From contig NC_092576.1 of the NCBI RefSeq assembly GCF_037975245.1, forward strand, positions 24,324,111-24,388,110: a stretch of 64,000 nucleotides of DNA. Direction: 5' to 3'. The notes beneath the pieces were generated by a model, which worked only from the letters and a program-made list of their open reading frames with translations, did not search any database and was not told the origin of the DNA. This document shows positions 5,114 through 58,600 of this stretch, piece after piece. Position 1 is the stretch's first letter. The number at the start of each line of letters is the position of its first letter. Position numbers and translations under genes: made by a program. The DNA comes from Apostichopus japonicus. Its lineage: Eukaryota > Echinodermata > Holothuroidea > Aspidochirotida > Stichopodidae.

Positions 5114-7491
5114 CTACTTTCCTGGCGAATGGCAGCACCTTAAGCAGAATATTTTTGTGCAGTTTGATTGGTTATGAGGTACTCCAACTGACTTTCTGTT
5201 CACAGCCCCACCATCTCTGTCTCCATGATTATTACTCTTTGGTTGCATCTGCTTTCGTCTTACCAATGTCTCATCTTCTACTTCTTCAACTCTACTATGC
5301 TCCTGCTTTGTTCTCCTTGTTTTCCTTTTAGCTGTAGGCAGAACACTATCATTATGATTGTCAATACCTTGTGGCAATACCCTTTCTCTTAACCGTATCG
5401 CTGAATTGTCTTTCCGCACCTGAGTCACGCATGAGTGAAGCCTGAGCTTGAAGCCTGAATCACTTGTTAACATTCTGGGACTACCATGAAGAGTATTGGC
5501 CACATCAAGTGGGCTTGCAATCATGGTCGAATTGTGTTGTGGAGTGAACGTCTTTGGCAAAGTTTCAGCATCATGAAATTCAAAAGGATCTGCAAATAAC
5601 GATTGTTCATCTGTTACAGAAGCTAAATGAGTTAGTTTGATTTCACACTTCCCAGCTCTTTTAATGTTCTTCGTATTTAGAAGCTTTGTTTGGTCCAAAG
5701 GTGAGCCCAAGCACGACTCCCATGGTTGATGCTCTCTTCTAGTTGGAGTTGATCTTCTGTTTCTGTCTTTTCTTTCTTTTCTTTTAGACTGTTGGAGTGT
5801 CTCTCTGCTTTCCTGTCTTTCTGACTTTAGGCAATCATGACCTTTTGTCCTCCTGCAATTACTTCCATGTACTACGTAGGTCATGTTTAGATCTCTTTTC
5901 CTCATCCTCCTTTCTTGTCTCTCTGTCAGTCTTGATTTAAGTCTTTTTCCTTCTACATCTCTTAAATGATCTGTTTGATTATGGATGGATCTCTCTCTCA
6001 ATCTGCTATACTCATCACTGGCCATCATAGAGCTTGCCTCCTCTTCATCCTCCTCATCACTGCTACCACTGGTTACCAAAGAGATTCCCTCCTCCTCCTG
6101 ATCCTTGTATCTTGTCTCCTCCTCTTTCTCTTCCTCTTCCTCTTTCTCTCCCTCCTCATAAGTTGCCTCTCCCTCTTCATCACTGCTATCACTGGTCACC
6201 AAAGTGCTTCCCTCCTCCTGATTCTTGTATCTTGCCTCCATCTTTTTCTCTTCCTCCTCATAAGTTGCTTCTCCTTCTTCGTCACTACTACCACTGGTCA
6301 CCAAAGAGCTTCCCTCCTCTTTCTGATCCTTGCATCTTACCTCCTCCTCTGCCTCATGAGTTGCTTCTCCCTCTTCATCACTGCTACCACTGGTTACTAA
6401 AAAGCCTACCTCCTCCTTCTGATCCTTGTATCTTGCTGCTTCTTTTTGATCATTGGTCCTATGGGTCAACAGAGAGCTTCCCTCTTCATCCTTATACTCT
6501 CCTGATTCCTCATCACCACTTCTTCTTCCAGAATATATTTTATCAGCATTTCTTTGATGTGGCTCCTTTACGATAAATGTATTCCCTGCTAATGGATATC
6601 CCTCTACTTTTGGCTGTTGCTTGGACTTGTATAAATCTCTTGGGGTGCCAAGACGGTAACTCCTTGTGGGTGTCCGAATGTTGTAGCTGCTGCTTCCTTT
6701 GCTATCCTTTTTAAAATATCTTCTTGGAGTACCTCTGTGTGGGGGAGTGACTGGATCATTAGGAATCCTTACCGGATCATTCCATGAGGGGCTGACAATG
6801 CATAGTTGGGACTTCCATGATTCAATTAACATCCTGGAGGATGGAGATTCTGGGAGTGTTGTTGGTATTACATAGGTATTTCTCATTGGACTCTCCATCT
6901 CCCCTACATCAACAGGAAGAGATCTTGGTGACAAACCAAACCTGCTACTTGGAGAAGAATGAATCTTAGTATTACCACTCCTGGGTGACAAACTAACTCC
7001 AACACGGCTGGACTTACTTGGTGAACCCTCATCACCCCCAAAAGGTTTCCTCTTTCTCTTGCCAAGGAAACACGTCCTGACTCTCATCATTTGATCTGAC
7101 TCAGATTCAATTCTGGATTGATCATCTGATCGCATTTCTTTATGGAATACCTCATCAGTAGTAATCTTGTCATTTTCATGGTCATCCACAGGGTTATCTT
7201 TAAAGGACCGATCATGGAATCTGTGCAGATTGCCTCCAGGACAATACTGATTGTCAAATTCTTCCTCTTCTGTTTGAGATTGTCCTTTCTTGACATAAAC
7301 AGCAGATTGAGAAGCATTTAACGACATTGAACTAATTTCGTCTTGTGTCTTCTCATTGCTTTCCTCTTCCACAACTTTCTTACTGCCGGTGTCTATCTCA
7401 GTTACGTCTTCCGACAAGTTCCTGACTGATACAGAACCACTGGCTATTGACAATGTGTCATCTGATGAATCTATAACTTCATTCTCTTGTT
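5114..7491 (-). CDS. Scm3/HJURP-like gene, large terminal exon
   Basis: 2378 nt, 792 codons and a stop, entered at the acceptor TCTTTTCAG in phase 1. The product is a low-complexity Ser/Glu/Arg-rich tail. It has a GKRKRK basic patch and a long SP/TP-rich block (SLSPRSG, TPRRYF, TPTRSY, TPRDLY), which are candidate CDK sites. Then come four copies of an SDEE repeat, an Arg-rich segment with RKRDLNMTYVV, and a basic KRKTRR tail. No structured domain is recognisable. A long frame this far from random on the minus strand, with splice-consistent upstream exons, supports real coding sequence. Confidence 0.85.
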
Positions 7492-10400
7492 CTGAAAAGA
7501 TGAAGATTTCTAGTTTCAATCATTTACATTGGTCAAGCAGTCATGTGTTATGTAGCACTGCTTCATTATGAATTCTTTCTATACATCCAAGTACTTGTAT
7601 ACCTATTTTACAAAAGATTTTGTGAATTCCTGAACTGGCAGAATTAGTCCTTTCTTTAAGGAATGGGAGGGGGCAGAAGAGCAGTTATTGACAGAATCCC
7701 TTGTAGTATATTCTTCTTGCTATTGTCCTCACTTAAAACTCAGTCACACTGTCCATTGAATTCTCTCACACTCACTGACTATTGTCTCGCAAATTAACAC
7801 TTCACTTACACTGCATGTTGTCCTCACTCACAGGTCTGTTCTACACTCACTGCCCATTGTCCTCACAAATTAACACTTCACATTCACTGCCTGTTGTACT
7901 CACTCACAGGTCAGTATTCCACACTCACTGACTATTGTCCTCACAAACTAACACTTCACATTCACTGCCTGTTGTCCTCACTCATATGTCAGTATTCCAC
8001 ACTCACTGCCCATTGTCCTCACAAATTAACACTTCACATTCACTGCCTGTTGTCCTCACTCACATGTCAGTATTTCACACTCACTGCCCATTGTCCTCAC
8101 AAATTAACACCTCACATTCACTGCCTGTTGTCCTCACTCACATATCAGTATTCCACTCTCACTGCCCATTGTCCTCACAAATTAACACTCCACATTCACT
8201 GCCTGTTGTCCTCCTTCACAGGCCAGTATTTCACACTCACTGACTATTGATCTCACAAATAAACGCTTCACATTCACTGCCTGTTATCATCACTCACATA
8301 TCAGTATTCCACACTCACTGCCTATTGTCCTCACAAATTAACACTTCACATTCACTGCCTGTTTTCCTCCCTCACAGGTCAGTATTCCACACTCACTACC
8401 TATTGTCCTCACAAATTAACACTTCACATTCACTGCCTGTTTTCCTCACTCACATGTCAGTATTCCACACTCACTGCCCATTGTCCTCACAAATTAACAC
8501 TTCACATTCACTGCCTGCTGTCCTCACTCACATGTCAGTAATTCACACTCACTGCCCATTGTCCTCACAATTGACTATTGTCCCCACAAATTAACACTTC
8601 ACATCCACATTCACTGCATGTTGTCCTAACTCACAGGTCGGTATTCCACACTCACTGACTATTGTCCTCACAAATCAACACTTCACATTCACTGCCTGTT
8701 TTCCTCACTCACAGGTCAGTATTCCACACTCACTACCCATTGTCCTCACAAATTAACACTTCACATTCACTGCCTGTTGTCTTCACTCACATGTCAGTAT
8801 TCCACTCACTGCCCATTGTTGTCACAATTGACTATTGTCCTCACAAATTAACACTTCACATTCACATTCACTGCATGTTGTCCTCACTCACAGGTCAGTA
8901 TTCCACACTCACTGACTATTGTCCTCACAAATTAACACTTCACATTCACTGCCTGTTGTCCTCCCTCACAGGTCAGTATTCCTCACTCACTGACTATTGT
9001 CCTCACAAATTAACACTTCACATTCACTGCCTGTTGTCCTCCCTCACAGGCCAGTATTTCACACTCACTGACTATTGATTTCACAAATAAACGCTCCACA
9101 TTCACTGCCTGTTATCATCACTCACATATCAGTATTCCACACTCACTGCCTATTGTCCTCACAAATTAACACTTCACATTCACTGCCTGTTTTCCTCCCT
9201 CACAGGTCAGTGTTCCACACTCACTACCTATTGTCCTCACAAATTAACACTTCACATTCACTGCCTGTTGTCCTCACTCACATGTCAGTATTCCACACTC
9301 ACTGCCCATTGTCCTCACAAATTAACACTTCACATTCACTGCCTGCTGTCCTCACTCACATGTCAGTAATTCACACTCACTGCCCATTGTCCTCACAATT
9401 GACTATTGTCCCCACAAATTAACACTTCACATCCACATTCACTGCATGTTGTCCTAACTCACAGGTCGGTATTCCACACACACTGACTATTGTCCCCACA
9501 AATCAACACTTCACATTCACTGCCTGTTTTCCTTACTCACAGGTCAGTATTCCACACTCACTACCCATTGTCCTCACAAATTAACACTTCACATTCACTG
9601 CCTGTTGTCTTCACTCACATGTCAGTATTCCACACTCACTGCCCATTGTCGTCACAATTGACTATTGTCCTCACAAATTAACACTTCACATTCACATTCA
9701 CTGCATGTTGTCCTCACTCACAGGTCAGTATTCCACACTCACTGACTATTGTCCTCACAAATTAACACTTCACATTCACTGCCTGTTGTCATCCCTCACA
9801 GGTCAGTATTCCTCACTCACTGACTATTGTCCTCACAAATTAACACTTCACATTTACTGCCTGTTGTCCTCACACACAGGTCAGTATTCCACACTCACTG
9901 ACTACTGTCCTCTCTTAGAGGGTACTTATTCGTTGTACTCACTGTCACCATAACAGAGCTGAAAATTTCATGTCACCATTATTCATCACCTAGAACTTGA
10001 CATTGCATAGTCTTTGCAAGTGATGTGAACTCAACTTAGAAGTCAATCTTGAATACTCACTATATAATAGGGACTGTTAGTAATCTCTTTGTTACATTTC
10101 ACAAATGCATATCAACATTTATCTTTGAGGAAAGCCCAAAAGCCAGAACTAACCTTCTCCTTGCTCCTCCTCCTTCTCCTCCTCAATGGTTGAATTAATA
10201 TCCTCCCATTCCTCATCTTCAAGCTGGTTTGTAAGCAATGTTTCCTATGTGAAAATACATAAAAAAAAGTCACTATCAGAAGAGAAACACAAAATATGAT
10301 CAATTGATATCATACAACAGGCTTCCATACTACATTTGAATTGTTATTGATATATCATACAACAGGCTTCCATACTACTTGTAATTGTTATTGATATATC

Positions 10401-13400
10401 ATACAACAGGCTTCCATACTACTTGGAATTGTTAATAATATATCACACAACAGGCTTCCATACTACTTGGAATTGTTATTGATATATCATACAACAGGCT
10501 TCCATACTACTTGGAATTGTTAATGATATATCATAAAACAGGCTTCCATGCTTTTGGAATTGTTAATGTTATATCATACAACAGGCTTCCATATTACAGT
10601 ACTTGGAATTGTAAATGATATTTCATACAACAGGCTTCTATACTACTTGGAATTGTTAATGATTATCATACAACAGGCTTCCATGCTACTTGGAAATGTT
10701 AATGATATATCATAAAACAGGCTTCCATGCTTTTGGAATTGTTAATGTTATATCATACAACAGGCTTCCATATTACAGTACTTGGAATTGTAAATGATAT
10801 TTCATACAACAGGCTTCCATGCTACTTGGAAATGTTAATAATATATCACACAACAGGCTTCCATACTACTTGGAATTGTTAATGATGTATCATACAACAG
10901 GCTTCCATACTACTTGTAATTGTTAATGATGTATCATACAACAGGCTTCCATACTACTTGGAATTGTTAATGATATATCATACAACAGGCTTCCATACTA
11001 CTTGGAATTGTTAATGATACAGTATCATACAACAGGCTTCCATACTACTTGGAATTGTTAATGATATATCATACAACATTCTTTATACTACTTAGAATTG
11101 TTAATGATTATACAACAGGCTTCCATACTACTTGGAATTGTTAATAATATATCACACAATAGGCTTCCATACTACTTGGAATTGTTAATGTTATATCATA
11201 CAACAGACTTCCATGCTACTTGTAATTGTTAAATTGTTAAAGGTCTAGGGACAACTAGCCTGACTTGCCCCATTTTCAGTCCATTTATTTTGCTGATAAT
11301 TTCATTCAAAATCTGTTGACATTTTAAAAAAAAGCTTTGTTCACTTCCAAGATATACACATTTGAAGTTTTGATATATCTGGAAAACTCATTGACTATAC
11401 TGTTTGTACAAACTATTACGTGGAGTGAACTAAGAAAAGACTTGTCATATGGTCAATCAATGATGCAAATTGCAGCTATTTTCATTATTTCTAATGCCCA
11501 TTTGAGCGATTAGGACAATGTTGTTCATAGGCATCCGTAGACCTTTAATAATACTGACACTAAAATGGGAATGACACAACATACACATTTGGAAGATTGG
11601 CAAGAATCTCATTAAGATGACTGTCACAAGGTTCTTACTGTGGCCTTTATTAGAAATTCGGATTCCCTTTGTATTTTTCTCTTTAAAGATCTATGCAGCT
11701 TTAAATTAAACACGTTAACAACAGCAAAAGCCAATTGACCATTGGCAAATAGTATGATTAGATATTTAACAAAGTATATATACAGTAATGGAATACAGAA
11801 TAATTCAAAGTTGTGAAAGACTTGATTTCAGGTAGCATCTAAATCCTCATCTCTACCTACGTTACTGTCAACTCTCTCATACAAATGTCCGTTATAGACT
11901 TGACTTTAGCATCATCTCACAAAGCAGTCCTACTGTACATCGTCATTTGTACATAATCGAAAGGGAAGGGTGCGATAACTCCCTGGCAATTACAGAGCGC
12001 AGATCAATATTTTGCAGACTTGTACAGTATGTGTACTGTAGTTTGGATTGCAACAAGTGGGTAGAAGGTAGTAGGAGGGTGAAAGTGGAGGGAGTACTGT
12101 AGGATGGTGGAAGTAGCTTTGAGGTACTGTAGCAGGAGGTAAAAGTGGGTAGGAGGGTGAAAGTGGGTAGGAGAGTGAAAGTGGGTAGGAGGGTGATAGT
12201 GGGTAGGAGGGTGATAGTGGGTAGGAGGGTGAAATTGTACAGGAGAGTGAAAGTGGGTAGGGGTGTAAGTGGGTAGGAGTAGGAGGGTGAAAGTGGGTAG
12301 GAAGGAGTAGGGGGGTGAAAGTGGGTAGATGGGAGACAAAAGGGGTGGAATGAGGAAGTATGAGGCTCAAAGTGGGTGGAATATGGAGCAGAGTAAAAAT
12401 GGCTGGAAGGAGTAGGAGGGTACAAGTAGGTAGGAGAGGGTTGGTGGATAAAAGTGGGTACTAGGGAGTAGGGGCATGAAGGTCCAAGGCAGTAGGTGGG
12501 TGGGTGATAGTGGGTGGAGGGTGTAGGAGGGTAAAAATTGGTGAAGGGTAAATAGTAGAGTGAATGTGGCTTGGAGGGTAAACTTAGGCACAAGACGGTA
12601 GGAGGGTGAAAGTGGGTGGAGGGAGTAGGAGGGCTAAAAGTAGGTAGAGGGAGGAGCAGAGTGAAGGTGGCTGGAGGATCGTAAGAGTAGGTATGTGGGA
12701 GTAGGAGGAAGTTGGTGGAGAGAGAAGGTGGGTGAAAGTGGGTGGAGACTGGAGAGAATACCAGGTTGAAAGTGAGTAGGAAGAAGTACAGGCTGGTGGG
12801 TGAAAGTGGGTAGCAGAGAGTCGGAGTGTGAAAGAGGGATTACGTGGGTGAAAATGGTTAGAAATGCATGGTATAAGATGTTCACTTACCTCTTCAATAA
12901 CTCCTTCCAGGAAAGAATCAAGAGCAGTGGCTGATAAGACACTCTTGGGTATGATATCACTCTTCTTTAAATCAACTGGAAAGAAGAAGAACATGGTTTT
13001 GTAATGGACCTTCGGAGCTACTGTAGCAGACTGGGATGTCAGTGAAACGATTCCCTCGTCCATATTTAACTAGTTTTGAAGAAATGGGAGACCATTTTGT
13101 CATCGAAAATGTATCTAAAAGCATTTTTGGAGGTCAGGTACTGTAGACAGTGATCATTCTCCAGAGAACGTGACCATGCTTTATCAGGAATGGCAACCGG
13201 ATATCGGCATTGGCTGCCCAGATGCCCAGTTTGTATGCCACCTGGTATAAATGTGTGCTGTACAGTACAGTAGTTAACATGAGAGATTATGGTCTTATAA
13301 TGGTCTGGAGGACAGCATAACTGAATGATTAAAGCTTCGACCCTCTGCCACATTACCTTAGCATTGCTCTACTTGACATCTCAAAGTATCCTGCCTAGAA

Positions 13401-16400
13401 GTCAATCTGACTTAACTTTGATGTTATTGGGACAACAAAAACACGATAACAAACTTCGGAAATGGACAGTGACTGCAATTCTAATATCTTGAATTTTCTT
13501 GGCAAAATTCCTCGCAACACACTAATTCTGTGATGTCACCTTGGCAAACACCCTTCAAACACTTCACTTAAGGTGTAATACTCTCGTTGGTTCATCAGTG
13601 AAAATTGATGAAGTTGATGGAATGTTTTGCTTGGTTGTCAGAGTTCTCTGTACAGTACTTACAATTTCATCAAAATGTTTTTTTGTAGAAATCTTGGTTG
13701 CCTCTTCATTTGAGTTGCCTTGTGTTCATTTGTGTTACCTTGTTTTCATTTCTTTTACCTTGTGTTCATTTGTGTTACCTTGTGTTCATTTGTGTTCATT
13801 TGTGTTACCTTGTGTTCATTTGTGTTACCTTGTGTTCATTCGTGTTACCTTGTGTTCATTTGTGTTACCTTGTGTTCATTTGTGTTACCTTGTTTTCATT
13901 TCTTTTACCTTGTGTTTATTTGTGTTACCTTGTGTTCATTTGTGTTACCTTGTGTTCATTTGTGTTACCTTGTGTTCATATGTGTTACCTTGTGTTCATT
14001 TGAGTTCATTTGTGTTGCCTTGTTTTCATTTGTGTTACCCCCGTGTTCCTTTGTGTTACCTTGTGTTATGTTGTGTTGCCTTGTGTTCCTTTGTGTTGCC
14101 TTGTTTACCTTGTGTTACCTTGTGTTACATTGTAGTGTACATTACTTCCATTACTAACAGAGGCAATGAAAATGTATGAATGCAACTTCTTAGTTTACTT
14201 GGTGGCATGTCTATCCACTGGTTAGTTTGTTTGGGGTGCACATCAGGAAGAACCTTATCAGGCTGCTACTGTAGATCTAGCAGAAATGTCAAAACTTGCA
14301 CACATTGTGGATAAAGTTTCCATTTCAAAATCAGCAAGACAGATTAGAAAGCACAAAGTACTCTGCCTTAAACTAATAATAGATAGTTCTTCTTCTTTAG
14401 AGCTGCATTAATAGACTTTTTTTTCACAGCTCAACAAAATTTCATAATAAGTGGAAAACAAGACTCTCTGAAGGTTGTCTTTTCAGAGAATTCTTATCAC
14501 ACTATGAATAAAAAAATTGGAATTTATGGTCAAATTTTTTCCAAAATCTGACCTTGAAGTTAATATACTTTAAGCATAGTGTGCCTGGATCTTACCATGA
14601 AAAGGATCATACTAAGTTCTTGATAATGTTGGTGTCCCCATTACAAACAAAACTCCCTTTTTCACACATACCCAATTAGGTCTAGCACAAGATACTGTGT
14701 GAGGGGTATATTCTATAATGGAAAGCCTTATTATGTTATAATATATTATACAAATAATGAATGGTTATGAGTGCAATAGTGCATATATTTCATGAGTTGA
14801 AAGATGGAATGTTCCATTCAACGAGGCTTAGCCGAGTTGAATGGAACAAATTACATCTTTCAACGAATAATATATTTGCACTATTGCATGAATGGAAACA
14901 TTATTATTTGTTTTATACAACATCTTATATTAAGATGGGTAAAATGCACCCATGCAACAGATTGTTTTGAACAGACAGGTTTCTCTGCTCTCTAACCATT
15001 GAAAAAAGTGCTACCAAAAAAGTATAACCCATGGTTCTATTTCATAGAGTGGAATAAAGCGGATTTTGCATGCAATCAACGAGCAATTGACCAATCAAAT
15101 GACCAGAATACAATTTCATGTAAATCATGATATCTGCATTCCCTCTTTAAAGCGAAATGTAATGATTGATAACACAGGAAATAACCAATGGCTTCACATG
15201 GTAGTTGAGAAAGAATACTTTGCATGAAAGTTGCAAATTGATGGAATGACCCACACACACTGTTACTTGAATTCTTGGAAACAAGACTACATAGTACATA
15301 CTCACCCGTGACTCTTCTGATAGGATCAATTTGATCCTCTTCTTTCCACACTGTCTGTCTGCTAGGCAAACTCTCCAGGAATCCTAAAGCAAGGAAGACA
15401 AATATCATACCCATATTATTTCGATATCAATTTACCATTCTGATACAAAGTTTGTATTTAGAACAACTTCACAAACCTTGTAACCTCACCACATTATTAA
15501 ATGACTTGCTATATAGTCCATCGAAGAAAGCTATTTAGGTTTCATGAATGGAATTCATTTTGCATATTAAGCAGGACATCATTAGAGTTTAATTATGTTT
15601 ACAGACAGTTATTTTGATACTGTAAGTAAAGTCCATGACTCTGATGCCTAGCTTCCCCCCTCCGCTTTGATCGGTAATGGCAAACAATAAAATTGGAATG
15701 ATGCTCATACTTGGCAACGGAACTTAGCCAGTTAAGCAGGCAAACTCACGGACCTGCCCATCGTGAAATGACAAACACTATGACCATACACACAATTAAA
15801 TGATAGGCTAGACAAACCCTATGACCATACACACAATGAAATGATAGGCTAGAAAAACCCTATGACCATACACAAAATGAAATGATAGGCTAAACAAACC
15901 CTATGACCATACACACAATGAAATGATAGGCTAGACAAACCCTATGACCACACACACAATAAAAAGATAGGCTAGACAAACCCTATGACTATATACACAC
16001 AATGAAATGATAGGCTAGACAAACCCTATGACCATACACACAATGAAATGATAGGCTAGACACTTTCAATTGAATATCAACTAAAGACTGTGCACATGGT
16101 CTACCATAAAGGTGCAGGTTACTTGATGGATGAGTGCAGTATTCAACAGCATGAATTATGAGGACAAGTAGAATTCCTATATATAATCTGAATGTAAATA
16201 CAGTACTCAACGTTGTACTAGTATCTAAATAGTTAGGTCTCAGACAGAGCCCTATATAAATGTATTACTCCAATGTACAACAATGCAACACTAGAAGTAC
16301 TTATGAGTATGGAGGAATTATAAATCTGAGAGTACCATCTAGTTAATGAGTTTCATTGGATTTCAGAATTGATGGATATCAGTACTTAGGAACCTGTATC

Positions 16401-18412
16401 ATCCAAAACTATATGAGACTTACATATAAGGCATTGAAGACTCCCGCACAAAGAAACGTCTCATGCCGGTAATCTGACCTAGTTTTGAATGAGGTGTAAC
16501 AGAAGTGTTAGACACCATCATCGATCCCAGAAAATACACACACAGCTTGCTACCATCGGTAATTAGACACAAGCGTACAGTCAATATTGCAGCTACGGTC
16601 AATACCCACAACACAGTGTACATAGCAGCGATGGATATCTCAGGTCTAGATAAAAGATAACAAGGTATCACGTTTCATTACTGTCTGCATTTTGTAGCAA
16701 ACTTCACTTGCAAGCAACGGAAAGTTAACCTTTTTCAGAGCACGTTGTACAGCTATATTAAATATATCTTGACCTCAAAAGAACTGGCATAGGAGGTCAA
16801 ACCTTCTAGAGTTACCATCTGTACATGTCAAGGTATCACACATACACACATAAACCCTCCATGACTGCTTAGTGCTTACACTCCTATCACGCTCAGCAAG
16901 AAAGGAAAAATGAGTAGCCTCTAATTTGTAATTCTGTCAATTTTAAACATAAACCATTGGAAAAAAAATCACTTAAATTACTCACCATAACTTTCACTGA
17001 CCGATAAGTCCTTGAGGTCAACCACATCACTGTCTGGAAATTCTTTGTCATACTAAGGTAAGAATCAACATAAAGAACTCTAGAGACACTAGTAATCAAA
17101 TAAGATAACTTGTAGAATATTGCAAGCTGCTTGCATTGTTTGACTTCCTCTTGATCCAACAAACTTTCCCCTTTATCGTAGTACCTTTTGCCCAACCCTC
17201 AACCATTTTGGTACCTGTTTCATTCTTCTGTACACCAACTATCAATTTGTATTCCTTGTTGCTCATCTTATTCATCTGGTTATTCACACTGTAGCACATT
17301 TAGATTCTGAAAGTTCTGATATTACAAACGGTAACTGTCACTAAAGAAGCGCAGTCTTGCTTTGTTGCACGATTGCACTCATACACTATGTGCACACAAT
17401 GAGTTTGTGAGATTGCAACTAACAGTGAAGTTACATTGCTGCAGTATTCACATTGGACAGTTAGAACAGCAATGATGACCACTTCTTTCTCAGACCGTAC
17501 AATAAATAAAATACCAAAAACTAAACCGAATATCAGTGACAAGCATTCAAAAGGATTTAAATAGATCATCAAATTTAGAATAGGCATAAGTACCCCACAT
17601 ATGATCTGTTTCTCCCTTTTCTATATTCATAATAATAATCATAATAACAATAATAATATAACTGATAATGAAGGAGAATACGCCTTTGATTGAACTGGAT
17701 TATGCATTACAAAGCATGACTTCATTTATACTGTACTCATGTATGAGGTTCAATGCTTGTGACTGATGTAGGCTAAATGAACTTCTTGCAACTTTGATTT
17801 GACTTATTTGTTGTGTTGTGACATGACATGACACAACAACACCCTGATGTATTTGGATCTGTTTTGCTTTGCGATACTTTATTAATTGTTCATAAACCTA
17901 TGCACAAGTACTATGTTTTCATAAAAGTGCATACACCTTAGAATAAGCTTTATTAAGAATGAATGAACTGGTTCGGCTCAAGTTGACCACTGCACTATAC
18001 TGTATGTGTGTGCCCTACTGTACAGTAGGCATATACAAAGTTATAACAACATTGGTACACTTGTGGCCTAGCCCAAACGTATATCCTGTATTAGCAATTT
18101 ACTGCATAAGTAGTGAGGTTACGGAGGTTGTTTTTTAGCCACAAGTAATAGGGCCGTCGGGCAGACCTAAGCCTGGGCTGGTTGACAAACAGTAAACGTA
18201 GGCTAGGCTAATTGATATTCCAGATTCGTCGCAAAACCCCTACCACCTAACTCAACATTACTTTATCATATGCGACAAAATGAGTATGAAATTCACTTTT
18301 AATTACAAAAAACACGACTAACTTTCGATATTATAGACATCATGTCACTGAGTAAACCATGACTCCTTTTGAGATTTGAATAAAGATGTGGATCGTCAGG
18401 TGTAGCCATCAT
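5114..18412 (-). CDS. Scm3/HJURP-like CENP-A chaperone (six-exon gene model)
   Basis: Predicted 929-residue protein, joined from coding exons 18412-18323, 17052-16986, 15383-15306, 12975-12890, 10244-10154 and 7491-5114. All junctions are GT/AG and phase-consistent. Seen: residues about 12-60, made by joining exons 1 and 2, contain KYDKEFPDSDVVDL preceded by an amphipathic helix and followed by a Gly and FLESL. This matches the Scm3-domain pattern of KY, an acidic linker, D-V-[VI]-[DQ]-[LM], then a short G-containing strand. Known of the family: Scm3 and vertebrate HJURP bind the CENP-A/H4 dimer through this segment and deposit CENP-A at centromeres. The rest is predicted disordered: a basic RKRK cluster near residue 283, many SP/TP sites (about 294-428), acidic SDEE repeats (491-624) and a basic C-terminus. 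Human HJURP is somewhat shorter. The family call rests on this one motif; the exon model is stronger than the function. Confidence 0.75.
6032..6433 (-). repeat. In-frame acidic repeat, four units of SLVTSGSSDEEGEA type
   Basis: Four units of roughly 30-40 residues, each containing YKDQ or KNQ, then LVTSGSSDEE, then a Glu-rich spacer of variable length. S/T followed by DEE fits casein kinase 2 sites. Spacer length differs between units, which suggests expansion by slippage within the exon. Confidence 0.8.
7745..9915. repeat. 78-bp tandem repeat, about 28 copies, in the last intron
   Basis: The unit alternates CACTCACTGACTATTGTCC, CACAAATTAACACTTCACAT and CACTGCCTGTTGTCC. The spacing of CACTTCACATTC at 7874, 7952 and 8030 gives a 78-bp period. 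A higher-order duplication is visible: 8247-8594 and 9075-9422 are nearly identical. Because 78 is divisible by 3, spurious open frames run through it. Confidence 0.95.
10154..10244 (-). CDS. Scm3/HJURP-like gene, exon 5
   Basis: 91 nt between acceptor CACATAG and donor GTTAGT, phase 0 in and phase 1 out. It encodes 30 residues, ETLLTNQLEDEEWEDI followed by a Glu/Lys-rich run. This starts the acidic part of the protein. Confidence 0.7.
10300..11235. repeat. 44-45-bp tandem repeat, about 21 copies
   Basis: The unit is CATACAACAGGCTTCCATAC plus TACTTGGAATTGTTAATGAT with ATATAT. Some copies carry small indels, and a two-to-three unit block is duplicated (10505-10610 versus 10695-10800). It starts about 55 bp upstream (in gene orientation) of exon 5. 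Confidence 0.93.
11236..12059. other. Intron sequence without recognised features
   Basis: Unique-looking AT-rich intronic DNA between two minisatellites. I see no exon with a convincing acceptor and donor pair here. Confidence 0.4.
12060..12860. repeat. G/A-rich ~18-bp minisatellite (GTGGGTAGGAGGGTGAAA)
   Basis: About 40 imperfect units. The plus strand is almost pure purine plus T, and the minus (transcribed) strand is CT-rich. The array ends about 30 bp from the donor of exon 4. GGG tracts recur every unit. Confidence 0.93.
12890..12975 (-). CDS. Scm3/HJURP-like gene, exon 4
   Basis: 86 nt between the acceptor AACTTTCCAG-like tract (TTTCCAG) and the donor GTAAGT, phase 1 in and phase 0 out. 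It encodes 29 residues including IIPKSVLSATALDSFL, a possible amphipathic helix. Confidence 0.7.
13066..13690. other. Intron sequence without recognised features
   Basis: Contains a diverged interspersed-repeat fragment (about 13510-13680) related to sequence near 1465-1630. No exon or RNA gene is evident. Confidence 0.35.
13700..14130. repeat. 20-bp minisatellite TGTGTTACCTTGTGTTCATT
   Basis: About 21 units with an exact 20-bp period across most of the array. Variants carry TTTTCATT or TTGCCT. Open frames across it are repeat artefacts. Confidence 0.95.
14735..14925. mobile_element. Foldback MITE-like element
   Basis: A long imperfect inverted repeat. GCAATAGTGCATATATTTCA ... TTCAACGAGGC pairs with the mirrored GTTGAATGG ... 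ATATATTTGCACTATTGC, with arms of roughly 85 bp and a very short loop around 14832. The outer parts (ACAAATAATGAATGG versus TGGAAACATTATTATTTG) extend the pairing imperfectly. Confidence 0.75.
15306..15383 (-). CDS. Scm3/HJURP-like gene, exon 3
   Basis: 78 nt between a CTTTAG acceptor and a GTGAGT donor, phase 1 in and out. It encodes FLESLPSRQTVW followed by an acidic stretch and IDPIRRVT. FLESL directly follows the DVVDL segment, as a short strand does in Scm3-type domains. Confidence 0.7.
15765..16065. repeat. ~42-bp tandem repeat, seven copies
   Basis: The unit is AACCCTATGACCATACACAC plus AATGAAATGATAGGCTAGAC, with minor variants, in the intron between exons 2 and 3. Confidence 0.92.
16426..16745 (+). 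mobile_element. TTAA-type MITE, copy A (right end decayed)
   Basis: Shares a core with elements at 37638-38041 and 44565-44938: GGCATTGAAGACTC at one end, then GTGTAACAGAAGTGTT, ATCGATCCCAGAAAATACAC and TATCACGTTTCA. The open frame inside (minus strand, 16671-16420) is a product of the repeat and is not an exon. Confidence 0.75.
16986..17052 (-). CDS. Scm3/HJURP-like gene, exon 2 (core motif)
   Basis: 67 nt between the acceptor TTACCTTAG and the donor GTGAGT. Phase 0 in, phase 1 out. It encodes YDKEFPDSDVVDL and then KDLSVSESY, the most family-specific part of the protein. It is too short to stand out as an open reading frame. Confidence 0.75.
17053..18322. other. Intron 1 of the Scm3/HJURP-like gene
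   Basis: AT-rich with a short (ATA/ATC)n patch near 17630-17660 and a ~30-bp near-palindrome around 17815-17845 (TTGTGACATGACATGACACAA). No exon is seen. Confidence 0.4.
18323..18412 (-). CDS. Scm3/HJURP-like gene, coding exon 1
   Basis: Thirty codons beginning MMATPDDPHLYSN and ending MSIISK, followed by the donor GTTAGT. It encodes the first helix of the putative Scm3 domain. Two adjacent ATGs (18412 and 18409) could both start translation; I chose the upstream one arbitrarily. Confidence 0.75.
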
Positions 18413-20276: not shown

Positions 20277-22278
20277 CAGGGGCGTATCCAGGATTTTCCA
20301 ATAGGGGGGGGGGGGCGTCAGGCATGAATGATCGCCGTCCTGGGGGATGGGTCTAAGGGGAGGGGTGTACAATTTTTGCTTTCGAAGAAGGGATGAAATG
20401 CAAAATGGTGTCATATGCATGGACGGCGATCCGTACTTCCGAGTGGGGGGGGGGGGGGGATATGACCTTGTTGACTATATAAGCGTAGCGCCACCATGAG
20501 TTGGCGCGAAGCGTACAAGAAAATTTTGGATTAACAAACCCTCTAGATGGCCGGAAACGGCACTTCCCGAAGTTTCCAAGCGGCATATACCCAACTTAAA
20601 AATAGGGATGTCATGTCCGAAATATCTCATAATCAGGATCCAAAATACTTTTTTTTTAATTTCGGGTGTTATTTTGGGAAAATTGCCCCTGTCAATCTTG
20701 TTTCAGGCGCAACGTTAGAATGTTCGCGAGCTCTTTTATATTATTCGATGAAGAAAATGGCCTCATGCAGGCTATTATAGGCCTATACACATGCAATACA
20801 CAATTACACATAGTTACATTCCTAGGTACCGATTGCTAGGGCATCCAGGTGAAACGTGTATTAAGCATTACCCTGGTTACATGAGATTCTCAGCTGTTCG
20901 AGGGAACATGTACGTGTGTAGGCCTACTATAGGGCCTATATGAATCAACGAGGTAAATGAATCTGGAGGATTCATGTCAATTGGGTGCGCGCGTACCATG
21001 TATGGAGGGTCATGTGATGTGTTCCAGGGTGGTACTATACTGATATTTCTCTGTAGCAGTTCGAGAACAGTGTTAGTGACTTCGTGAAAGATTGGTCGGT
21101 TCGGACATGGGAACTAACGGCATAAGAAGGTACTGGTACTTCAGGCCTACGAAATAGTGCTAATATGCTAACGTTCAACCTTATTCTCTTGAATGAAGGC
21201 AGGCTTTCTACATAATCTTACTTATTAATACAGCTCTAGGGGCAAGCTTTGTCTCATATGGCTTAACGTTATTACTACACGCTATAAGTGAGTGTAGAAA
21301 TGGGAAATGTGGGGAAATGTTTAGTTCAGTGCAACCACGAAATTCTCCATGGAACAGAGCCTAATGCTGTTCGACGGGAATATAGCTATCACGTTAGGCT
21401 ACAGGCACGGTTATTGCTAGGTAACGGGTGTCGTCTGCTGCTCTAAGCGCGCAAACTCATTTACGTACTAGTTGGATGAAATCATCATGCGTAATAGGGA
21501 GAGTAGTATATTAGTACCACCCTGGAACACATCACATGACCCTCCATACATGGTACGCGCGTACGCGCTTATTTACTGTGTGATAGTTTCTCCAGATTCA
21601 TTTACCTCGTTGATATGAATACTATGAGGGTGCATATATGTACTATATCAATACCGTGGGCGCAATAATACATGTTGTTGTTATAGGGCCAATGAAGCCT
21701 ACAGTCAACTATTTTTGCTTTATAACGACGCTTTATTTGAAAAGATCGCACTGCGTTTATGGTAGGCGAGAAATGAAGCTAAAAAAGAGCCGTACATTAA
21801 CGAAGATGCATAAATGTAGGCATGAAAATATTCTTATCCCTGGCATTTGGTGGGGGGGTATGGTGCATTACATCCCCTCCACCCATTTTCATCCCCCCTC
21901 CACCCAGGATCGCTGCCCATGGCCATATGTGATCCATTTTTCGACCTTAATAATAAGCAACATTTCCAGTAAATATGGACACAAAATGCACAATTTAGTA
22001 TGGCTGGCATGTCACTTAGTGTTTATAGTGATAATACAAACACAATTACCATCTATGTTTCTAAAACTATTATGCCGCCGAACTTCGCCAGAACCTTTTT
22101 TTGGCAAACAAAAAATAAAGCAAACGGGAGGGGGGGGGGGGGGTTGAGCGATCACCGACATCTCACATAAAGGTCGTCATCAATTTTTTTTTTTTTTTTT
22201 TTGCTAAACTTTTTTTTTTTGGTGACGGCCAATAGGGGGGCGCGCGCCTGTTGCGCCCCCCCCCCGGATACGCCCCTG
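20277..22278. mobile_element. 2.0-kb TIR transposon with nested insertions
   Basis: Begins CAGGGGCGTATCC and ends with its exact reverse complement GGATACGCCCCTG. TATGC flanks both ends, possibly a target duplication. Inside are a fragment with the GCGCCACCATGAGTTGGCGC segment shared with 31998-32110, a foldback element (20939-21618), and long poly-G, poly-T and poly-C runs. No transposase frame is recognised, so it is non-autonomous. Confidence 0.75.
20939..21618. mobile_element. Foldback element nested in the 2.0-kb transposon
   Basis: Arms of about 110 bp (20939-21049 and 21510-21618) are inverted copies. They share AACGAGGTAAATGAATCTGG, GCGCGTACCATGTATGGAGG and GTGATGTGTTCCAGGGTGG. About 460 bp lies between them, with no coding potential. 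Confidence 0.8.
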
Positions 22279-23731: not shown

Positions 23732-25983
<2,252 letters not shown>

Positions 25984-40100: not shown

Positions 40101-43100
40101 TTGGTAATTTTTAAAAGATGTCGAACTACAACATACTCCAAAATTTGGTGATTTGATGGAATGACCCTGATAGTACATGGGATTTAAATACAAAAACCGG
40201 TTGATATTCTCTGAAGCATATATGCCTCTTATTCAGTGTTTGAAGATGTTCGGGTTGGCAATGAATGAAGAGAAATTCAAAAGATCTGCCTCAGCTATAA
40301 TACCTACTACCAATCGATATTTGAATTTGATTCCAGTGGCCAACAATGCTTTATATCGCCTCTTCTTTGGACCGATGTCATTTCTCATTTTGTATCTTTC
40401 AGGATAACATGGACATCATGGCTGATGGTGGTGGTGGTGGCATCGGTTCCTCGTCCTCCTCTAAACCAGCGTATCCTGACTTCCTCAGCATGGCTATGGC
40501 CGAAGCGAATCTGGAGCCAGATTTCGGTAGCCTCGACCAAGAACCCTTCTTCACTGCCACGGTGGACTCCGCCGAGCTCGGTGGTGTACCTGAGCAGAGG
40601 ACTTCAGTGACTTTAGATTCCCTCGTGGAAGATACGAACATCAGCGCCAACAATGCAAACGAGGAGGGTTCTGTGGGGATCGTCCAAGTGAAGGATGAAC
40701 CGGTCAAGACCCACGAAACATCAGCAGCTGCCAAAACGGCCATCTCAGCAGTACAGAGATTGATCTCTCAGTCATCGCAACCGCTGCACCATGGCGCTCT
40801 GGCTCCAGACATCCCTACTCAAAAGATGATCCACTACAAAGCAGAGGATCACCCTCAGGGTAGTAAACTACTGGGGGAGGCGATCGGTCAAGCGGGGGGT
40901 ATCATCCAGCCAATCAGCATTCATGCAGGCACGAGCCAGGTGGTAACCAATCCAGTGCAGCAACTTACGACACAGGCACTCGACTCTCTGCAGCATAAAC
41001 AGGTATCGGCGAAACAGCTGGCCACTCAGCAGCAACTGGTCCAGCAGTCGGGCCAGGGGCTACAGCTGAATGCACAGCTACAGTCTCTCGGTCCTGCCGT
41101 ACAGCAGCAGACCGGTCTGCAACAAGTCCTGATTGGTCAGTCACACCAGTTGCAAGGGGCAGGCAATGTACAACAACTCGTCCTAGGATCAGTCCAACCA
41201 CAGATTAATGTGATTCAAGGACAGGCCAACATCATTCAGCCAGGTCATCTCGGTACTCAGGTCCTCCAGTTGCAGAGACCGCAGTTGCGCCCCAAGATGG
41301 GGGTAGTCGGAGCTCAGCCCGCTATGAAACAGATACAGCTAGTTTTGAACCCTCAGACTGGTGTCATCAGTCAGGTGCCTGGAAACATCCAGCTGAGAGG
41401 CCAGTTGATATCGCAACAGCCTGGAATGATCGGCTCACCTCAAGTTATTATTCAAAATCAAGCCCAGCAGCAGCAGCCCCAGCATTCACAGGCTCAGCAG
41501 ACGACTTCGAAGGCCAAGACGATAACTACCAGCGCCACCGTGAGCTCGCAGCCAGTCATAACTATGGCAGCCAGTGAGGGTAATATCATAGTCCTCACAA
41601 ACTCCACTCCGATAGCTCAAACTTCGGTCTCCCAAAAAACAAACACTGTAACCGTGAACAGTTCTACTACACATGTTGCTAGCAGCAGCAGTAACAGTAA
41701 CAGTCAACCGAGCAAACAGTCCAAGAGCAAACCGGGGAAGACTAGTAAAACTAAAAGTAGAAGAAGTCAACAACGAACCAGTAGCAGCAGCGGCAAGCCA
41801 GTCACGACAGTATCGGTCACTACGGTCACAAACTCTTCAGCCGGCGGCCAATCCCAGAGTGTCCAGAGTCTAGGCTCCATTCCCTCCATCCAGGCAAGCT
41901 CTCCCTCCCCTGTGACGTCCCTATCCAACGCTTCCGGTCTGACCTCGGCCGGTGGGCCTATCGCCACGAGAATAGGACAAGCCGTCACTACTTCCCAGAA
42001 CAATGTTCTCCAGCATTTGAATATTCCAGGCATAAAGCAAGGTACTTTGACTATCAGAAATAAAGATCCTCCGAATAGTGTCGTCGTGTCGGGCAGTTCT
42101 GTACATACCAGTGAACCAGCTCCGGTCATTTCCCACCAGGCAGGAACGGTCCACTACCGCCCCAGACAGATGGTACCGAAGCAGCAGTCAGATAAGAACC
42201 CGGCTTTACAACAGCTGGTTCAGAACCTCAGAGCTCAGGGTGACAACGAAAGGCTACGTAGCCTGAGGCAACTACAGAAGCTGTTGCAGCAGAACCCTCA
42301 GGCCAGCCAGCAGTTGCAGGAATTGATGAAGAGTAAACTGGTGGGAACGAAACCGGAGGTATCGGTCAAGAAGCCCCCAGTGACCAGCTCGGACGTGACC
42401 AAACCACCCAACGTTTACCTGCAGCCTCAACCTGCAAACTCGTTACCCTTTCAGACCGGTAGTAAGTTATTCAATACCAGTGCTCCTTCTGGAGGTTTGA
42501 CCATACCACCTCTGTTCATAAACAAATCGAACGCCAGGATGTCTCACTCCCTGATCGTACCAACTTCCACCGAAGTCTCTAAACCTTCGACCCTGCAGAA
42601 CCTATCCGGAGTTCTCTCGAGTTTTGTGAACCAAGCGACCACTGCGACTTCGACTTTGCAGCAAGTGAGATTCAGCGAAGACAAAGATACCTTCTTAGAT
42701 AACCTTGATTTCTTGGATGCAAAGACTGTCGGGCAAACTGCGGCACCTGCCGGTGAGAGCCACTTGGCTATTCCGGGGGTGAACCAGTCGCCTGTTACTG
42801 CTATAAGTGCAGCGACCGGTTCTAGTTTGGCCGCTGCCAATGGTAACTCGCTTTTACAGCCTACACAGAAGATAAGTGTTACTACTGCTGCTCAGTCATT
42901 CACCTCTAATCCGTTACCGTTGAGCAGCGTACAGCTGTCTGTCGGTAGTGATAGTTCAGCAGTGCTGGATGTACCATCATCCGTAAGCCAAGCAACAGCT
43001 CAGTACTCGGTAGGATTAGCTAATGCTGCCACCGGTCTCTTAAACAACCAACCCAAACTAGTCGTTTCGACCCTCGCGGAAACGATCAGTTCCTTGGTGA

Positions 43101-46100
43101 ACACTTCCAAGGCGAGTTTCATGAACAAAAATCCACCGGCTGGAGAGGGCAAAGACGATAAGCGAGAGTTAAATGTTGGGGTAAGTGCAATTCGCGGACT
43201 GCAGGGTCAACCGGAGGTCGCCGCTACCTTGAGAGTCACTAGTCCTGTCCAACAAGCACCAGTTCAGGCAGCACGTCCCGAAATGATACAGTCAGCCAGC
43301 CTTCAGAACTTGAATGCCAACAGCGGTGTAGTATCAAGACCTGCTATAACACTGGTGAGTGCACTGTACACAACTGACTATATTTCAGTTTTGACTGTAC
43401 TGCCAAGTAATTCAGGTGGTGTGTGATATATCATTGCAGGAGGCAAGACTAAGAAACTTGCAATGATTTGTGGAAATGACTTAAAATTGTCTTACAAAAT
43501 TGGTCATGGTGGAAATAAATGATGAAACGTTTATAGTTCCAAGGATTCACTGTGCTTTAGTGCAGGCAGTGATGAACAAGGATTGGAAGAATGGGTATGT
43601 TTATGCCAGCCACGTTTTATTATCATGAAGTTTTAAGTTTAATGCTAATACACATTATTTTCCCAATTGCATTATATGCAGTGGCATATACCTATGCTAA
43701 TCCTAGAAGTACCATGTTGGTTTTCTACCATTACTTAGCCTACATAACATTATGTACATTATCACTGCATATGGCATAAGGTCTAATTTAAGCACTAAAG
43801 TCGATATATTTCATCGTAATCTCCATTCTACCTTAGTAACCTTACATTTTACATATGAACACTGCCTAATTGCTGGTGTTAATTCTCCTTTAATGATATC
43901 TGTGTGCTTTAAGTTAGATCTGTCATTAAAACCTCTGCCATAATACATGAACTCAACTTGACAGGTTTGGCTTTCATAGTAAAACTGTAATTCCGGAGAA
44001 AACAATTACTGCATGTTTAATTACGCACAAAAAATTAATATTTCATATTGCCACAAGTTGTTGAACCTGAGTTATGATAATTCGCAGACGAGTGAGCAGA
44101 TCGGTATCCGAGCGCAGCAACAGCTCCAGCAGATACAAGCACGCATCCAGCAATTGATGAGTAGACAGGTGCGTTCTGACATTGAGAACAGACAGTTACA
44201 ACAGCTCCTCCACTACAGGCAGAAAGTCATTGTGAAAGTCAAGGCACAGCTAGCACAGTTAAGCCATCAGCAGAGGTTAGCTAACCTCTCAATGGGGCAA
44301 CAGTCAAGGGATAAGCCGGGTACAGCTGATGCTGGTAAGTAATATCAAAGTGTTTGGATTAGTCTAATCCTTGTATCAGAGACATTTCATATATTGTGAC
44401 ATATGATAGCTACACTCTCAATGGGGCAACAGTCAAGGGATAAGCCGGGTAACAGCTGATGCTGGTAAGTAATATCAAAGTGTTTGGATTAGTCTAATCC
44501 TTGTATCAGTAAGTGAAATCACACTACAAGCAATCCTTGAATCAGACAACCAATCCTTGGAACATTAAAGGGTGTGAAGACTCGCGCAAAAAGAAATGTC
44601 TAATGTCGGTAATTTGACCTAGTTTCGAATGAGGTGTAACAGAAGTGTTTAACACCACCATCGATCCCAGAAAATACACACACACAGCTTGCTACCATCG
44701 GTCATTAGACACTAGTGTACAGTCAGTACATACAGCCGCGGTCAACACCCATAGCACAGTGTATAAACAATACAGCGATGGACATCTCAGGTCCAGCTAA
44801 AGTTAACAATTAAGGTATCACGTTTCACTACTGTCTGCATTTTGTAGCAACACAAACAAAACATCACTTGAAAACAACAGAAAGTTAACTTTTTCAGATG
44901 GCCGCACACGGTTTGGGGCAAGTCTTCAATGCCTTTAAGTAACTCTCCATCTAAAACTTGAATAACCCTAGGTATCTATGCAGATTACACTAAACTTGTT
45001 TTTCCTATTGTTACTTTTTCAGGTCCTGTGACCCCTCCATCCTCTCAGATCAATGTAGGTGCTGTGAGCACTCCATCCTCTCAGATCAATATAGGTACTG
45101 TGAGCACTGCTGCCCAAGTCGCAACCAAAGCTGGTGGTGCCTTCTCTTCTTTGCTGGTACCCCATGGGCAAGCAATAGGAAAGAATGCCTCTACTGGATT
45201 GAATGTCCATGTCCTAGCACAATCCCCTCAGCAGCAGCAACAACAGCAGCAGTACAGCCCTAGTGTCTCGCCGGCCGGTGCATCGGGGCAGAAGCAGATC
45301 CAGAACGCGTTGATCACCTCCACCACCAGCAAACAGGACACCTTGAAGAATGTCAGAGTTGGCAAGCACAAAAACAGTGAATCGGACAAGAAGAATCAGA
45401 AGAAGATCAAGATGACATCGGAACCGAATATCACACTGTCCCAATCTCTGAACTTTAAAGGTGCTAACAGCACGGAATCGAGTGCCCTAAAGGCCAAACT
45501 CGAGGAGGGTTCTTCTTCATTGAGTAACTCCCTGCCTGCTGGACAGCTTCAGTTTCAAAGTGGTGGCAGTACTCAGGGGATGAGCATGCAAAGGGCTCAT
45601 CTTTCAAAGGTAACACTTCTTCTTATTAATTAAAAACTACAACATTATTAAGATATTTTGAAGGGCCACCTATTTTTCTCTGACAGAATTGACCACCGAA
45701 CCACAGAGAGAAGTTTTGCTTTTTATCATGGAAATAAGTCAATTCTCCAAAATGCTTTGTTTGGCTAGGCTGGAAAGTGATGCATCCTAACACACAATCC
45801 AATATAAAGTGTTATACAAATCCCGTAATTTTTGCACAATATGGGTGCAAACTGAAAATGGCCGACTCCAAACTCAGTGACACAGAGTTTCATAGAGTTT
45901 GGACATATCGTTACAGAATGAAATGGAACTTTGTAAGCCAATTCTGAAGGTTAAATTTTATCAGTGTGTAGAAGCCAAAGGGAAGACCTTTTTTACTTGG
46001 AAACACCATATTAAAACATTCTTGTATTTATAAACTCATGTCGTAAAAATTTCATCCTTGAGAACACATATCTGAAGAATATTTAGATACCAAAGTTACC

Positions 46101-55686: not shown

Positions 55687-58600
55687 CTGTGACACTTGCT
55701 TGGGTACGCTCTATCTCAATAAGGGAATGTTGGATTGAGGCCAAACTTGGACTATAGATCCGCCATATGGAGAAGGTGTGCCCTATTGTTTTTGGTGCCC
55801 ACAAAGGTCACCAAAGGTCAGTTATGGTCCAAAAACCGAAAATATTAAAACTGCAATAACTCCCAGTGCCAATGTGCGACAAGATTGATATTTTGGGACA
55901 AGTTGTGAACTGGTTAGGGGAGCATTTTCAAACATAACGGTCATGTGATCCGAGGTCACCAAAGGTCAATTAATGATAAAAAACTAGTATTTTTGCGATA
56001 ACTTGAGAACGAAATGTCTGTTAGGGTTGGGAGTTGCCTCAACGTGATCCAATTGTCGACCCGCATCTGGGTGACCCTTGACCTCAATTTGACCTCTGGT
56101 GACCTTTTCGTGTTTTTGGGATTTTTACAGTTTCGATGCTATTTTCAGATGTCAAAGGTACCTTCTGATCATAAATGTCAATAGGTTGACCCCGTGTGAC
56201 CTTTATGTGCGAAGTTATATGGGGTCAAAGTTTTTCGGTCGGAGTTAGGATGGTTGTACAGACTTTTCGTTTTGTTTTTTGGAATCAAGAGATTAAACTA
56301 CATCTGAAACCAAGGTCAAAAGGTCAAAGGTCACATTAGAAAAAATGTGCTTATTTTGGGAGGAAACGAGCAAAAAAGAAAATGTTTGGTTTTGATGCTA
56401 GATTTGGATATCAAAGGTACCTTCCGATCAAAAATGTCAATTGGTTGACACCCGTGTGACCTTCGTGTGCGAAGTTATACGAGGTCAAAGTTAATTTTCA
56501 CACATTTAATGCAACAACTCCCAGTTCCAAGGTGTGACATGGTTGATATTTTTGGACAAGTTGCAAATGGTATAGGGGAATATTTTCAAACTTACCGGTC
56601 ATGTGATCCGAGGTCACCAAAGGTCAATTAATGTCAAAAAACTAGTATTTTGGGGGTAGAAAATGGGCAAAGAAAAAAATGTTTGAATTTTTATAGTTTG
56701 ATGCTCTAATTTAGGTCTCATCAATCAAAAATGTCAATAAGTTGACCCAAGGTGACCTTTGTATGTTAAGTTATATGAGGTCAAAGTTATTTTTCAGACA
56801 TTTAGTGTAATAACTCCCAGTGCCAAGGTGTAACACAGTTGATATTTTGAGACAAGTTGCAAATGGTATAGGGGAATATTTTCAAACTTAACGGTCATGT
56901 GATCCGAGGTCACCAAAGGTCAATTATTGATAAAAAACTAGTATTTTTTGCGATAACTTGAGAACAAATTGTCCGTTAGGGTTGGGAGTTGCTTCAATGT
57001 AATCCAATTGTCGACCCGCATCTGGGTGACCCTTGACCTCAATTTGACCTCTGGTGACCTTTTCGTGTTTTGTGGATTTTTTACAGTTTCGATGCTATTT
57101 TCAGATGTCAAAGGTACCTTCTGATCATAAATGTCAATAGGTTGACCCCTGTGTGACCTTCGTGTGCGAAGTTATATGAGGTCAAAGTTAATTTTCAGAC
57201 ATTTAATGCAATAACTCCCAGTTCCAAGGTGTGACAAGGTTGATATTTTTGGAGTAGTTGCAAATGGTGTAGGGGAATATTTTCAAACTTAACGGTCATG
57301 TGATACAAGGTCACCAAAGGTCAATTAATGATAAAAAACTAGTATTTTTGCGATAACTTGAGAACAAATTGTCCGTTAGGGTTGGGAGTTGTTTCAATGA
57401 AGTCCAATTGTCGACCCGCATCTGGGTGACCCTTGACCTCGATTTGACCTCTGGTGACCTTATTAGTGTTTTGTGGATTTTTACAGTTTCGATGCTATTT
57501 TCAGATGTTAAAGGTAACTTCTGATCATAAATGTCAATGGGTTGACCCCCGTGTGACCTTCGTGTGCGAAGTTATATGAGGTCAAAGTTAATTTTCAGAC
57601 ATTTAATGCAATAACTCCCAGTTCCAAGGTGTGACAAGGTTAATATTTTTGGAGTAGTTGCAAATGGTATAGGGGAATATTTTCAAACTTAACGGTCATG
57701 TGATACAAGGTCACCAAAGGTCAATTAATGATAAAAAACTAGTATTTTTGCGATAACTTGAGAACCAATTGTCCGTTAGGGTTGGGAGTTGTTTCAATGA
57801 AGTCCAATTGTCGACCCGCATCTGGGTGACCCTTGACCTCAATTTGACCTCTGGTGACCTTTTCGTGTTTTGTGGATTTTTTACAGTTTCGATGCTATTT
57901 TCAGATGTCAAAGGTACCTTCTGATCATAAATGTCAATAGGTTGACCCCTGTGTGACCTTGGTGTGGGAAGTTATATGAGGTCAAAGTTAATTTTCAGAC
58001 ATTTAATGCAATAACTCCCAGTTCCAAGGTGTGACAAGGTTGATATTTTTGGAGTAGTTGCAAATGGTATAGAGGGATATTTTCAAACTTAACGGTTATG
58101 TGATACAAGGTCACCAAAGGTCAATTAATGATAAAAAACTAGTATTTTTGCGATAACTTGAGAACAAATTGTCCGTTAGAGTTGGGAGTTGCTTCAATGA
58201 AGTCCAATTGTCGACCCGCATCTGGGTAACCCTTGACCTCAATTTGACCTCTGGTGACCTTTTCGTGTTTTGTGGATTTTTTACAGTTTCGATGCTATTT
58301 TCAGATGTCAAAGGTACCTTCTGATCATAAATGTCAATAGGTTGACCCCTGTGTGACCTTGGTGTGGGAAGTTATATGAGGTCAAAGTTAATTTTCAGAC
58401 ATTTAATGCAATAACTCCCAGTGCCAAGGTGTGACAAGGTTGATTTTTTTGGACAAGTTGCAAATGGTATAGGGGAATATTTTCAAACTTAACGGTCATG
58501 TGATCCAAGGTCACCAAAGGTCAGCTAATGTTAAAAAAGTAGTATTATGGGGGGAGAAAATGGGCAAAGAAAAAATGTTTGAATTTTTACAGTCATGCTC

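Follow-up and report, generated by a model that had tools for sequence, protein, structure and literature searches.

Does a minus-strand gene of the sea cucumber Apostichopus japonicus, whose most recognizable domain is divided among very small exons, encode a CENP-A chaperone of the Scm3/HJURP type? The gene lies in a stretch of 64,000 nucleotides, which we call the window and whose first letter is position 1. A first-pass annotation proposed that exons of 90 and 67 nucleotides join to give a CENP-A-binding Scm3 domain, and that this domain sits on a 929-residue protein otherwise lacking known domains. We conclude that the gene very probably encodes an animal Scm3/HJURP protein, i.e., a dedicated chaperone of CENP-A, the histone that marks centromeres, with CENP-A binding as its predicted activity. 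The evidence comes from profile searches with controls, from sequence features of the domain, and from the position of one intron.

Gene structure

The gene model consists of six exons on the minus strand. Exon 1 (18412-18323, 90 nucleotides, phase 0) supplies the start ATG and a helix up to the Lys of a Lys-Tyr (KY) pair, which together make up residues 1-30. Exon 2 (17052-16986, 67 nucleotides) carries the Tyr of this pair and DKEFPDSDVVDLKDLSVSESY, which corresponds to the Scm3 domain's acidic/hydrophobic strand, and is bordered by cttaccttag on its 5' side and by gtgagt on its 3' side. These two exons do join in frame, as had been claimed, and the joined product reads MMATPDDPHLYSNLKRSHGLLSDMMSIISK-YDKEFPDSDVVDLKDLSVSESY(G). 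Exon 3 (15383-15306, 78 nucleotides) encodes (G)FLESLPSRQTVWKEEDQIDPIRRVT, which includes the end of the Scm3 domain and the counterpart of its DXGXL region. The Gly/FLESL strand had been placed within the first two exons, but exon 2 contains only part of the Gly codon, which exon 3 completes, and FLESL belongs to exon 3, outside positions 16986-18412. Exon 4 (12975-12890, 86 nucleotides) encodes VDLKKSDIIPKSVLSATALDSFLEGVIEE and is open in only one of the three frames, exon 5 (10244-10154, 91 nucleotides) encodes an acidic linker and fits in phase, and exon 6 (7491-5114, 2,378 nucleotides) encodes a long charged tail that ends at a TAG stop codon.

When the six exons are spliced and translated, the joined frame specifies 929 residues and a stop codon, with no internal stops, thereby reproducing the protein length given previously. 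Each of the five introns begins with GT and ends with AG, and the open frame to which exon 6 belongs spans 801 codons (7519-5114). A TGA codon is in frame 30 nucleotides upstream of the start ATG of exon 1, and an AATAAA sequence is located 35 nucleotides downstream of the stop codon.

Splice sites were ranked by using frequency matrices, among 995 GT sites and 1,062 AG sites. The donors of exons 2, 3 and 4 rank fourth, first and second, and the acceptors of exons 3 and 4 rank third and second. Weaker sites are the donors of exon 1 (gttagt, rank 174 of 995) and exon 5 (rank 26 of 995), and the acceptors of exons 2, 5 and 6 (ranks 51, 29 and 30 of 1,062). Codon usage, scored after training on three ORFs from elsewhere in the window, gave the exons no support, with the true frame top or tied in two of six. 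When only stop-free frames are considered, the true frame is best in all six exons, but in three of these it is the sole stop-free frame. On whether exon 6 belongs with the chaperone domain, codon usage speaks neither for nor against.

Introns 2 to 5 contain minisatellites, located at 7767-9912, 10307-11232, 12134-12279, 13705-14131 and 15770-16062. Their units measure 78, 44, 18, 20 and 41 bp, and some lie within strong GC skew.

Resemblance to the Scm3 domain

In a Pfam search, the 78-residue peptide encoded by exons 1-3 matched Scm3 (PF10384) and no other family (E=5.2e-5, 23.3 bits). The match covers residues 20-58, within the interval of residues 10-80 in which the first-pass annotation had expected it. 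Scm3 is also the sole family matched by exons 1-2 (E=6.9e-5, 22.9 bits), and is detected in the whole 929-residue protein at E=0.0037 and 17.4 bits. The curated Pfam cut-off for Scm3 is 24.3 bits, so the score of exons 1-3, which is lower by 1 bit, narrowly misses by the strict rule, and that of the full protein is lower by 7 bits. Exons 2 and 3 without exon 1, queried with one extra leading Ser, matched no Pfam family. Among ten control peptides, which comprised nine shuffles and one reversal of the 78-residue peptide, none matched Scm3, and two gave weak matches to other families (E values of 0.1 and 0.16).

We also constructed a local profile from solved chains only (human HJURP and the Scm3 proteins of S. 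cerevisiae and K. lactis). It was run against every six-frame ORF of the window with 15 or more residues, 2,908 in total. Because this profile contains no sequence from the window and the scan is window-wide, the freedom of choice that the initial annotation enjoyed is removed. The ORF that includes exon 2 ranks first, with 12.3 bits versus 8.0 bits for the next ORF. For comparison, 20 windows were simulated by a first-order Markov process that kept the nearest-neighbour base frequencies, and the top ORF of each scored between 4.6 and 9.2 bits. With the same profile, the score of exons 1-3 is 25.0 bits (for 2,908 sequences, E=1.6e-6), compared with 20.5 bits for the full model. A single-sequence search of solved structures retrieved Scm3 at E=1.1 as the third of five matches, behind two loosely aligned proteasome subunit sequences. 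A profile that combines the window protein with both yeast proteins retrieved human HJURP only at E=0.83, in the correct register.

The question arises whether the likeness could be a chance product, with an unrelated low-complexity protein happening to contain a short amphipathic helix and an acidic strand. In favour of chance are the shortness and variability of the domain, a Pfam score lower than the curated cut-off, the full-length E value of 0.0037, and the lack of significance in the single-sequence structure search. However, such a coincidence would have to account for the absence of Scm3 matches among the shuffled and reversed controls and for the prominence of the exon 2 ORF in the scans of the real and simulated windows. 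It would also have to account for the comparison of first-exon partners and for an independent agreement with mouse in intron position (both below). We regard chance resemblance as very improbable. The Scm3-type reading of the joined exons, as originally proposed, is supported by the profile matches, the controls and the intron position found in mouse.

Features of the domain and its predicted function

Animal Scm3/HJURP proteins have been described by Hollis et al. (bioRxiv, March 2026, PMC13001451; Sci Adv, July 2026, PMC13322267). The text of the earlier report names the KY pair, an alternating acidic/short-hydrophobic motif and an N-terminal position as features, and describes the KY dipeptide as almost universal among deuterostomes (PMC13001451). 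In the window protein, KY corresponds to residues 30-31, with K contributed by exon 1 and Y by exon 2, and the strand that follows it, EFPDSDVVDLKDLSV, shows the alternating acidic/short-hydrophobic pattern. The amphipathic helix that had been claimed is upheld as far as sequence can show, in that the hydrophobic spacing before KY is unusual: the hydrophobic moment of residues 10-31 was reached in 1.9% of 5,000 shuffles. The counterpart of DXGXL is SYGFL, in which G and L are kept and D is not. This signature is described as being under relaxed constraint in animals (PMC13001451).

The Scm3 helix is reported to run antiparallel to the alpha-2 helix of CENP-A, where KY meets a conserved Glu (Hollis et al., PMC13001451, PMC13322267), and the acidic/hydrophobic region is reported to contact the CENP-A targeting domain (PMC13001451). 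Every one of these elements, namely the helix, KY and the acidic/hydrophobic region, is present in the window protein at the sequence level. We predict CENP-A binding, centromere targeting and a role for the tail as follows. Residues from about 10 to 60, encoded by exons 1-3, would constitute a CENP-A/H4-binding Scm3 domain. In this domain, the amphipathic helix ending in KY would extend along the alpha-2 helix of CENP-A, the next strand, PDSDVVDL, would pair with the targeting region of CENP-A, and the GFLESL segment would close the domain. The chaperone would bind a soluble dimer of CENP-A and H4 and pass it on to centromeric chromatin, and the long charged tail would serve in recruitment and cell-cycle control.

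Choice of the first exon

The first exon was evaluated by joining exons 2-3 to each of the 1,306 phase-0 GT donors between positions 17120 and 40000, and scoring the products with the local profile. The donor of exon 1 is second of the 1,306 at 25.0 bits, and a donor at 17185 is first at 25.8 bits; exons 2-3 without any partner score 12.9 bits. In Pfam the order is reversed, with 23.3 bits for exon 1 versus 17.1 bits for the 17185 alternative, and exon 1 is the best of the six candidates scanned. Five alternative partners were chosen from the 12 best, of which four retain a Scm3 match, at 14.2-18.3 bits, and one has none. The family assignment therefore does not depend on exon 1 alone, and exons 2-3 have Scm3 signal of their own.

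The true first exon could differ, for example by ending at 17185, such that the 90-nucleotide exon at 18412-18323 would be outside the message. The weak donor of exon 1 (174 of 995) and the lead of the 17185 alternative in the local profile (25.8 versus 25.0 bits) are in line with this arrangement. However, the Pfam scores (23.3 versus 17.1 bits) favour exon 1, the peptide of the 17185 alternative places a proline within the expected helix, and exon 1 has a start ATG with an in-frame stop upstream. A different first exon is therefore quite unlikely in our estimation, and exon 1 appears from its sequence to be the better partner of exons 2-3.

An intron within the KY pair

In the gene model, a phase-0 intron separates the Lys and Tyr of the KY hallmark. 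An in-frame TAG lies immediately 5' of the Tyr codon in exon 2. Thus, if this Tyr is present in the protein, splicing must occur exactly before it and in phase 0, regardless of which exon comes first.

Guide RNAs published for mouse Hjurp (Filipescu et al. 2017, PMC5393061) permit a comparison. One guide is assigned in that paper to the 'exon 1-intron boundary', and our translation of it yields KRLIAK and then GT, in a frame fitting human RLIEK. The guide given there for exon 2, when read on the other strand, yields PFEDDP, which is the counterpart of human PFEDTP. Together, these guides indicate that the first intron of mouse Hjurp falls between the same two codons and in the same phase. The K/Y phase-0 intron is common to the window gene and mouse Hjurp, where mouse is the only comparison.

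Literature searches on HJURP/Scm3 introns and exons did not find the K/Y intron in print, and the word 'exon' has no occurrences in the main text of PMC13322267. The use of this intron as a membership criterion is our own and is unpublished. In the coelacanth, a 64-nucleotide gap made the Scm3 domain incomplete, and the text of Hollis et al. calls this a contig gap, not an exon (PMC13001451). A tentative parallel is that the gap is one codon shorter than the 67-nucleotide exon 2 of the window gene and leaves the same one-base remainder.

The possibility that the K/Y phase-0 intron and a tiny exon 2 are ancestral in animal HJURP genes is, in our judgment, evenly balanced. If they are ancestral, the only conserved domain would be divided into segments so short that gene finders and assemblies fail to handle them, which would help to explain the apparent absence of the chaperone in many animals. 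The coelacanth gap fits such a scenario, and exon structure could then be used as an alignment-independent test of orthology. The K/Y intron provides a handle on orthology that does not rely on a rapidly evolving protein sequence, and it points to a practical cause for the loss of Scm3 domains in annotation pipelines.

Relationship to known chaperones

Proteins of this family had been called hard to find in invertebrates. This assertion has since been superseded: Hollis et al. report orthologs of Scm3/HJURP throughout the deuterostomes, echinoderms among them, and in most of the metazoan lineages they examined, and they tested function in zebrafish and C. elegans (PMC13322267, PMC13001451). 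Their set includes Patiria miniata XP_038057064.1. The window gene is not a first but one more animal Scm3/HJURP, and the addition made here is the intron that it has in common with mouse. It would provide one more animal CENP-A chaperone in a family long considered patchy in invertebrates.

According to the description by Hollis et al., metazoan HJURP proteins have an N-terminal Scm3 domain, KY, alternating acidic/short-hydrophobic residues and little else that is conserved, and at the level of this description the window protein agrees. S. cerevisiae Scm3 (PDB 2L5A) and K. lactis Scm3 (PDB 2YFV) exhibit an II(S/Q)KY...D(V/L)(V/I)DL register, as is found here, with 13/40 and 9/30 residues, respectively, identical to the window protein when aligned on KY without gaps. 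In the DXGXL region, the DNGHI of S. cerevisiae Scm3 corresponds to SYGFL in the window protein. Human HJURP (PDB 3R45) has the helix, KY and acidic strand in an ungapped register, with 12 of 41 residues identical to the window protein, whereas its TLTY motif is not kept in the window protein. Mouse Hjurp resembles the window gene in its K/Y intron. Vertebrate HJURP has, in addition, middle and C-terminal families recognised by Pfam. None of these was detected in the full window protein or in any of three tail pieces, which leave residues 464-629 outside. This result agrees with the tetrapod and teleost HJURP motifs being reported as not shared by echinoderms (Hollis et al., PMC13001451).

The charged tail

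The tail encoded by exon 6 contains four SSDEE-type acidic repeats and three basic patches. Of the 18 S/T-P sites in the protein, 17 are in the tail, and all six full CDK consensus sites are among these 17. At E values up to 10, Pfam finds no family except Scm3 in the full 929-residue protein, and no domain in the same three tail pieces (residues 464-629, the acidic repeats, being outside them). The claim that other known domains are absent is thus consistent with the Pfam result for the full protein. Hollis et al. remark, anecdotally, that strong Scm3 hits often occur in largely unstructured, polar proteins (PMC13001451), and the tail described here is likewise charged and without domains.

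The attachment of exon 6 to the five preceding exons is predicted from splice signals and phase. If this prediction is wrong, exons 1-3 would be a real Scm3 domain while exon 6, and perhaps exons 4-5, would come from a separate neighbouring gene, such that the 929-residue protein is a false fusion. The splice sites of exons 5 and 6 are moderate (ranks 26-30), no domain links the tail to the chaperone, and introns 4 and 5, which contain long minisatellites, could conceal other exons. A separate gene is harder to reconcile with the sites of exons 3 and 4, each of which is within the region's top three, and with the consistency of phases across all six exons. Moreover, the first Met of the tail exon is residue 193, some 55 codons in, and a Met so late is unlike a first exon. 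We consider a fusion of two genes unlikely, and favour a single six-exon gene.

Other features of the window

Two overlapping plus-strand ORFs of 144 and 181 amino acids occupy 5966-6576, on the strand facing the exon 6 acidic repeats, and are probably only a shadow of these repeats. On the minus strand, a single open frame at 23732-24661 encodes a nucleotide-diphospho-sugar transferase (PF03407, E=9.7e-19). A match to GLTSCR1 (PF15249) is present on the plus strand at 59866-60240, with E=1.1e-4 and 23.0 bits, which is lower than the cut-off of 28.2. Upstream of it are Gln-rich plus-strand ORFs at 40331-43426 and 44962-45633 that have no Pfam match. The Gln-rich ORFs and the GLTSCR1 match probably represent a BICRA/BICRAL-type gene. 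A search of the whole window against Rfam gave no matches at the gathering threshold.

Repeats also occur elsewhere in the window. A 101-bp unit is present in 22 copies with a 98% match at 61761-64000, extending up to the window end, and a 400-bp unit is repeated 4.6 times at 56724-58546. The stretch at 20944-21614 has nested inverted repeats at its ends, of 53 nucleotides at 98% and 25 nucleotides at 100% complementarity, and our guess is that it is a small non-autonomous DNA transposon.
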